Below are positions 24,030-25,735 of a stretch of DNA of 64,000 nt, piece after piece. Source of the DNA: an uncultured Enterobacterales bacterium. Its GTDB lineage: Bacteria; Pseudomonadota; Gammaproteobacteria; Enterobacterales; Enterobacteriaceae. The position numbers and the translations under genes are program-made. Location of the stretch: NCBI GenBank assembly GCA_946478305.1, contig CAMLBO010000002.1:62001-126000 (forward strand). Direction: 5' to 3'. How positions within the stretch are numbered: position 1 is the first letter of the stretch; every line of letters starts with the position of its first letter. The notes beneath the pieces were generated by a model. The model was not told the origin of the DNA. It saw nothing but the letters and a program-made list of their open reading frames with translations, and searched no databases.

Positions 24030-24056
24030 TAAAGTTTTCTGCCATTCTGCCGAAAA
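24030..24056 (+). promoter_or_regulatory. Sigma-28 (FliA) flagellar class 3 promoter
   Basis: TAAAGTTT at 24030-24037, an 11-base spacer and GCCGAAAA at 24049-24056 match the enterobacterial FliA consensus TAAAGTTT-N11-GCCGATAA at 15 of 16 positions with exact spacing. It lies 62 bases upstream of the next start codon. Confidence 0.85.
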
Positions 24057-24118
24057 TAACACCACAAGGATCACCGTACCCATCAACGCGAAGACGTGAA
24101 AAATAAGGGCTCATCAGG

Positions 24119-25669
24119 ATGACTGTAATATCTCTGGCAGGAAATCAATCTCTCAATACGCTGGTATCTACAACCAAAACGACCGCCGTGACGGCCATTG
24201 CCCAGGAATCACAGGCTACGGCTCCCCAATCCGTTTTAGTGTCATTCGGAAAAGTGGAATCTGTAAACACTAAGCCGGTATACACCATCACCCGCCCTGT
24301 CCCCGTCTGGGAAAAGGCGTCAAGCGACAGCATAAGTAGCAAAATGGCTGGCAACTTTACCTCACAGGCCACTGCGGTACGTTTCCAGGGGCTTGGAGCG
24401 GCGCTGCTTAGCCGCTTCACAAATGACGGCAGCAACTTCTCGCAATCTGTCCGTCAGGCGTCGTCCATCGAGGGTCTGAACCCGGTGAAAAACACCGACA
24501 ACCAGTTCAGCCTGAGCATCAAAACTGCAGGCGGCGCGTTGGTGAATATCACACTTGGCAGCAGTAACGATGCGCTGGGCGTACAAATTGAGGTGACGAA
24601 TGGCAACCTGAGCGAAGCCGAACGTACTGCGCTGGCAAAACTGTCCGATGCCTTCCAGAAAACCATTGATGGCCTGACACAACAACCTCCGCGTCTGGAT
24701 GTGGCCGGGTTAACGAAATTCGACAGCTCAGTGCTTTCCTCCGTTGACCTGCATGCAAAATTAAGCAGCGCGCAAACGCTGGATTTCCACGCTGACAGTA
24801 AGCAGCGTTCGGTTAAATCGACAGGTATCGCTGGTACGGTGAATATCAGCGTGGATATGAGTAAACAAGCGCTCTTAGGGACCGCTACTCAGCAGCAACA
24901 GGCGCTAAACCAGTATCTTAAGCAGATCGACAGCGCAAAGGGTCGCGGCAACGGCAATGAAGCATTAATGGACATGTTCCGGGATGCCTTTAGCGCCCTC
25001 AACAGCAACTATGGCGAAGCGGCCGCTACGCCAAAAAATAGCGCACCCGCCGCCGTTCATTTCTCCCTGAATGGAACGGATAAAAACATGCTGACCGGAC
25101 TGGCAGATTTCAACGCCTCCGTTACGCAAACGCCGGATAACACCATCAATCCGCTGCGCCCGGATGAAGTTGATGCTTTCTATTATCAGATTTCGCAAAA
25201 TACCAGCATCACGGGCAACAGCACCCTGGACCGCGGCATCAGCCAGAAACAGCAGTCCCATCTCGTGGCCAGCTACCATAAGCCCCTGTCGTCTGGGCTT
25301 CAATTGCACCTCACCACGCTGAAAGCTTCACAAAATTACGAGTACACTCAGATAGATGACAAAGCAGAAAGCGCCACGGATATTCAGTACCGTAAAGGCG
25401 CATTAATCAGTGCCACGCTGAACCAGACAGCCAGTACTTCCACGCATGTTTCTAAATACGTGAAAGGATTACTTGAATCCGATACCACCACGCCTGCGCA
25501 GACCACTAAATCAGTCGATCTCCTCGGAACCCTTAAATCGCACTGGCAAAAGGCCAACACCCATAGCTCGTTTGAGGGCTATTTACATCAGTTCAACCTG
25601 CAAGACTTTAGCAGCGTAGTATTACTGCAAACCGACCCGGCACAGCTACGTCAGTCCGCCACGGCGTAA
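24119..25669 (+). CDS. Unrecognised cysteine-free 516-residue protein of the flagellar (sigma-28) regulon
   Basis: I do not recognise the family. The protein has no cysteine, no signal peptide and no membrane helix, and is rich in Ser, Thr, Gln, Asn and Ala. The first 50 residues are low-complexity and Thr/Ser-rich, as in flagellar type III export substrates. Beta-prone stretches (FSLSIKTAGGALVNITLG near residue 130) and a helical Gln-rich block (ATQQQQALNQYLKQID near 260) follow. The only clear promoter is a FliA-type class 3 element 62 bases upstream; AAGGG lies 10 bases before the ATG. Export through the flagellar apparatus and a motility or surface role are inferences. Confidence 0.8.
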   Translation: MTVISLAGNQSLNTLVSTTKTTAVTAIAQESQATAPQSVLVSFGKVESVNTKPVYTITRPVPVWEKASSDSISSKMAGNFTSQATAVRFQGLGAALLSRFTNDGSNFSQSVRQASSIEGLNPVKNTDNQFSLSIKTAGGALVNITLGSSNDALGVQIEVTNGNLSEAERTALAKLSDAFQKTIDGLTQQPPRLDVAGLTKFDSSVLSSVDLHAKLSSAQTLDFHADSKQRSVKSTGIAGTVNISVDMSKQALLGTATQQQQALNQYLKQIDSAKGRGNGNEALMDMFRDAFSALNSNYGEAAATPKNSAPAAVHFSLNGTDKNMLTGLADFNASVTQTPDNTINPLRPDEVDAFYYQISQNTSITGNSTLDRGISQKQQSHLVASYHKPLSSGLQLHLTTLKASQNYEYTQIDDKAESATDIQYRKGALISATLNQTASTSTHVSKYVKGLLESDTTTPAQTTKSVDLLGTLKSHWQKANTHSSFEGYLHQFNLQDFSSVVLLQTDPAQLRQSATA

Positions 25670-25682
25670 ATAAAACTCCAGA

Positions 25683-25735
25683 TGCCTGACACTCTTACTC
25701 AGTAAAATAAGTTTTGCTGAGTAAAAGGTCAGGCA
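25683..25735 (+). terminator. Interrupted long hairpin after the sigma-28 gene
   Basis: Outer arms TGCCTGAC (25683-25690) and GTCAGGCA (25728-25735) pair, and inner arms ACTCAG and CTGAGT pair, leaving an internal loop. It begins 13 bases after the stop codon and has no strong T tract. Confidence 0.5.

Follow-up and report, generated by a model that had tools for sequence, protein, structure and literature searches.

An unnamed family of cysteine-free proteins with a conserved sigma-28-type promoter site in beta- and gammaproteobacteria

A gene for a 516-residue, cysteine-free protein, located in a 64,000-nucleotide stretch of an uncultured Enterobacterales genome (hereafter the window), very probably belongs to the FliA (sigma-28) regulon, as judged from a promoter motif that recurs at fixed spacing before its homologues. 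The gene (24119–25669, + strand, as are all features below) was defined as an ORF with ATG start and by homologue searches. Its product matched no known family in Pfam, NCBIfam, PHROGs, PADLOC or the PDB sequences, isolated sub-threshold Pfam names being taken as noise, and no description of its family was found in the family databases and literature searched. Late-flagellar accessory genes outside flagellar clusters are a known kind.

The promoter, a sigma-28 (FliA) type site TAAAGTTT-N11-GCCGAAAA at 24030–24056, reads TAAAGTTTTCTGCCATTCTGCCGAAAA and carries a single mismatch to TAAAGTTT-N11-GCCGATAA (15/16 positions), with a spacer of exactly N11 and 62 bases between the site and the ATG at 24119. 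A probable ribosome-binding site, TAAGGG (24104–24109), was read from the sequence nine bases before the ATG. The sequence-only reading had proposed just such a near-consensus site at exact spacing and at this distance from the frame, and re-reading together with scans of the window and the genome bore it out. It is the only site in the window at three or fewer mismatches (shuffling expectation 0.53), and one of only five in the whole 4.87-Mb genome at one mismatch or less. Among the other four, one precedes flgM, another precedes the gene of a PdeH/YhjH-like c-di-GMP phosphodiesterase (NF008617), and one lies near flhDC; the window site thus counts among the best FliA-type sites of this genome. 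In E. coli, flgMN and yhjH are FliA targets (PMC4183435), and the tsr site TAAAGTTTTTCCTTTCCAGGCCGAAAA, which is bound and used by FliA, has a –35 octamer and a GCCGAAAA –10 element identical to those of the window site (PMC4183435). The host genome carries fliA on a contig other than that of the gene (C135, 3629–4291, 283 bits).

Conservation of the site was assessed in 79 non-redundant homologues by scoring N11-spaced sites within 150 bp upstream out of 16 positions, and other ORFs of at least 250 aa from the same loci (n = 320) served as control in an identical scan. A score of at least 12/16 was reached by 61 of the 79 homologues and of at least 13/16 by 46, compared to one and none of the 320 control ORFs, respectively, and shuffled upstream DNA attained at least 13/16 in 0.05% of cases. 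Spacers of 7–10 and 12–15 were far rarer among the homologues (0–6 at ≥13/16). With a single representative per lineage (n = 30), 13 scored at least 13, 20 at least 12 and 25 at least 11. The assignment as an orphan late-flagellar gene had been put forward with the proviso that homologues consistently lacking the motif would speak against it; the opposite was seen, and the assignment is strongly supported by a sigma-28 site kept before homologues of 28–65% identity in many genera and several families. A chance match before a gene outside the flagellar regulon could be argued from the facts that a consensus site is a prediction only and that many E. coli FliA sites are silent (PMC4183435), but the fixed spacing and the position conserved against matched controls make this highly improbable.

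About seven of the 79 homologues have no clear site of the E. coli consensus, most of them from Oxalobacteraceae and Cupriavidus. In several Oxalobacteraceae copies (L119, L122, L123, L124 and L127, from Massilia/Pseudoduganella), a –10-like box GCCGTTAA stops six bases short of the conserved ATG, a placement at which transcription would start approximately at the start codon and perhaps yield a leaderless mRNA. Of 32 carrier genomes, 31 gave a FliA match above cut-off; the remaining one is a poor assembly in which the gene copy is likewise broken. In Enterobacter sp. EA-1 (L072 / L014), the homologue is frame-broken, assembly completeness is 49% and the fliA match is partial. As evidence, the co-occurrence with FliA was rejected as too weak, since nearly all free-living relatives have fliA, including most of those without the gene.

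As the sequence-only reading had also stated, the gene lies far from any flagellar cluster in this window, no flagellar gene being recognised among the window ORFs read. It stands alone, flanked on one side by a DUF421 gene and on the other by a small, unrelated lipoprotein-like ORF. A flagellar or secretion cluster was discarded as an option after ten neighbouring ORFs that were tested gave matches to metabolic enzymes, TonB receptors, a UvrA-like protein or a regulator, or no match at all. Just 3' of the stop codon lies a strong stem-loop without a T-run (25683–25735; –32.9 kcal/mol, z –7.5) of long, nearly perfect pairing; a search for RNA elements gave no match in Rfam.

The surroundings differ between carriers: in the genus of the host, conservation of the locus is largely confined to the mntH side, in Kosakonia the gene precedes acnB, and elsewhere it adjoins other metabolic genes. 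In three Kosakonia loci (L053, L054, L064), it lies directly before acnB, which was identified in L053 and is represented by an ORF of the same length in the others; in E. coli, the corresponding place before acnB is held by the unrelated yacH. One genome of the host's genus has a locus identical to that of Ewingella americana ATCC 33852, with a homologue only about one-third identical.

Relatives occur in 29 of the 392 genomes assigned by the grouping tool to the host's family; plasmid-borne relatives come from Pantoea, Paraburkholderia and, on a single plasmid, Pseudomonas. The 79 named loci cover Kosakonia, Phytobacter, Pseudescherichia, Pantoea, Erwinia, Ewingella, Cedecea, Rahnella and Rouxiella within the Enterobacterales, and beyond these Pseudomonas, Herbaspirillum, Cupriavidus, Achromobacter, Bordetella, Undibacterium, Duganella/Massilia relatives, Paraburkholderia, Rhodoferax and Luteibacter. 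Homologues hence span Enterobacterales, Pseudomonas, Luteibacter and Burkholderiales, in carriers associated with plants, soil and insects. A search of 50,697 phage records for a phage origin gave no match; a contig of 40.8 kb labelled as viral (L052, IMGVR_UViG_2881168774_000005) carries a 49% identical relative at its end and may represent the bacterial flank of a prophage. In a quick tree with midpoint root, the window protein groups with Rahnella and Rouxiella, beside Herbaspirillum, and apart from a clade of Pantoea, Kosakonia, Cedecea and E. americana. The gene sits at differing places in different genera and appears to be horizontally transferred, with transfer between beta- and gammaproteobacteria as the simplest reading of these sequences.

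At the protein level, an AlphaFold2 model built on 73 family members was confident (pLDDT 86, pTM 0.84), with low confidence restricted to residues 1–51 and a short loop near 300. In the predicted fold, three antiparallel sheets come one after another, each with a helix behind it, and a helical tail closes the chain. The C-terminal domain (residues 318–516; 25070–25666) combines long antiparallel strands and helices, contains a conserved SQNYxY motif and reaches a pLDDT of 93 when modelled alone. Comparison with PDB structures gave no significant match (Foldseek E > 0.05; VIA Z no higher than 8.6 with the whole protein and 6.8 with the C-terminal domain alone), which does not show the fold to be new. 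Porin, actin-capping-protein, TULIP, gasdermin and perforin matches were weak (E > 0.05, Z < 9) and mutually unrelated, and were discarded. The analysis gave no evidence of an enzymatic site, and none of a binding partner or host target.

The frame of 516 codons has none for cysteine, as had been claimed, and 75 of the 79 homologues are cysteine-free over approximately 39,600 residues; two of the remaining four contain one cysteine and the other two have doubtful start calls. Neighbouring ORFs of 400–650 aa contain a mean of 4.9 cysteines, and only 4 of 120 have none. None of the 14 flagellar export substrates of E. coli contains cysteine (0 Cys in 4,135 aa), compared to 32 Cys in 8,563 aa of 31 non-exported flagellar and chemotaxis proteins. 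However, 14 of these 31 are also without cysteine, including Tar, FliF and FliG, so that the feature is expected of an exported protein, yet is neither diagnostic alone nor proof of export.

A second feature is the N terminus (residues 1–51; 24119–24271), which is predicted to be disordered (pLDDT < 50), is rich in Ala, Ser and Thr with few charges, and is a candidate export signal region. Across the family, charged residues make up 6.9% of the first 50 positions vs. 19.8% of the rest, and Ala, Ser, Thr and Pro 53% vs. 34.5%; the Ser/Thr-rich N terminus noted initially is therefore a family trait by composition. By eye, this region shows no hydrophobic stretch, and no cleaved signal is visible. 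A cysteine-free family, a disordered and charge-poor N terminus and the lack of a visible cleaved signal are plausibly compatible with export through the flagellum, and from sequence and model we place the predicted export and a role outside the cell at about even chances. Against export stand the lack of a recognised likeness to known exported proteins and of a recognised chaperone gene beside the gene.

The chief rival to export is a FliA-dependent but cytoplasmic late-flagellar regulator or modulator of motor or chemotaxis, comparable to YcgR or PdeH, in which the absence of cysteine would be incidental. Such a role would fit the globular, confidently folded body of the model and the 14 cysteine-free proteins in the non-exported E. 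coli set, and non-exported orphan genes under FliA control are known in E. coli, e.g., ycgR, yhjH, flxA and yjcZ (PMC4183435). That undescribed chemotaxis modulators exist is illustrated by VF_1491 of Vibrio fischeri, a monocistronic gene of unknown function whose disruption gives a tumbling bias (PMC3948606), the parallel drawn here being one of kind. An absence of cysteine over so many residues of divergent homologues, however, exceeds what is seen in that class, and the disordered, charge-poor N terminus of 50 residues likewise speaks against this reading; we regard a cytoplasmic modulator as a real possibility that falls somewhat short of probable. Alternatively, the protein could share only the timing of the flagellum and leave the cell, or reach the envelope, by another route. 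The horizontal spread of the gene, its position away from flagellar genes and the long antiparallel strands of the C-terminal domain could be read in this way, but no secretion-system gene was recognised among the ten neighbouring ORFs tested and the protein has no recognised signal, which leaves another route rather improbable.

A further hint towards the flagellar context comes from proteins of the DUF5610 type. No member of the window family matched the DUF5610 model (PF18433) above cut-off, and DUF5610 was not mentioned in the literature searched. A core of about 90 residues, comprising a beta meander, a helix and an FD..L.SVDL strand (window residues 125–216; 24491–24766), aligns in hhalign with the region beyond the DUF5610 domain (probability 89, E 2e-6; with only three sequences, probability 36, E 4e-4). 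The DUF5610-type proteins, related only remotely through this core, are cysteine-free as well, and differ from the window family by the DUF5610 domain itself, by their lengths and by their N- and C-terminal parts. Among the DUF5610-type loci from other gammaproteobacterial orders (L138–L156), no translated protein contains cysteine. Many of the genes have a sigma-28-like site 30–66 bases before the start, with the best scores in L154 (15/16), L147 (14/16) and L153 and L156 (13/16), in a set without matched control. These similarities suggest that the DUF5610 proteins are late-flagellar too, and make a common origin of the core together with shared regulation likely. A wider and more tentative reading, to which we give slightly less than even chances, is that both groups form a so far unrecognised superfamily of flagellum-exported, sigma-28-controlled proteins, disseminated in part horizontally across beta- and gammaproteobacteria, which would function extracellularly, whether on surfaces, on hosts or as an accessory component of the filament.

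For the window gene itself, we propose monocistronic transcription by sigma-28 RNA polymerase as a late (class 3) flagellar gene. The sigma-28 regulon is transcribed after FlgM has been exported, hence only with a finished hook-basal body, and expression of the gene would correspondingly begin once this structure is complete and FlgM is out of the cell. The unstructured, charge-poor N-terminal ~50 residues would then provide the signal for flagellar type III export, and the folded part, with its three antiparallel beta-sheet units and the helix after each, would function extracellularly, on the filament or unattached in the surroundings. As a whole, this chain from late transcription through export to an outside role could equally well hold or fail in our estimation.

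In its promoter architecture, the window gene resembles the class 3 members of the E. coli FliA regulon (e.g., tsr, tar, ycgR, yhjH, flxA and fliC), among which orphan positions outside flagellar clusters are likewise known; the E. coli regulon differs in that no DNA-level homologue of the gene was found in 5,426 E. coli genomes. Export of non-structural proteins via the flagellum has been described for YplA of Yersinia and Cia/FlaC of Campylobacter (PMC8306008, PMC5223770). If exported, the window protein would likewise be non-structural cargo of the flagellar apparatus, comparable to these proteins by kind.

A whole unnamed family that extends over many genera and keeps its sigma-28 promoter despite differing gene places was absent from the databases and literature searched. 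Its carriers include motile and genetically tractable members of Kosakonia, Pantoea, Rahnella, Herbaspirillum and Pseudomonas. If these proteins are exported, they would add to the few non-structural ones that pass through the flagellum; if they are not, the family would nonetheless bring a new late component to motility or chemotaxis.
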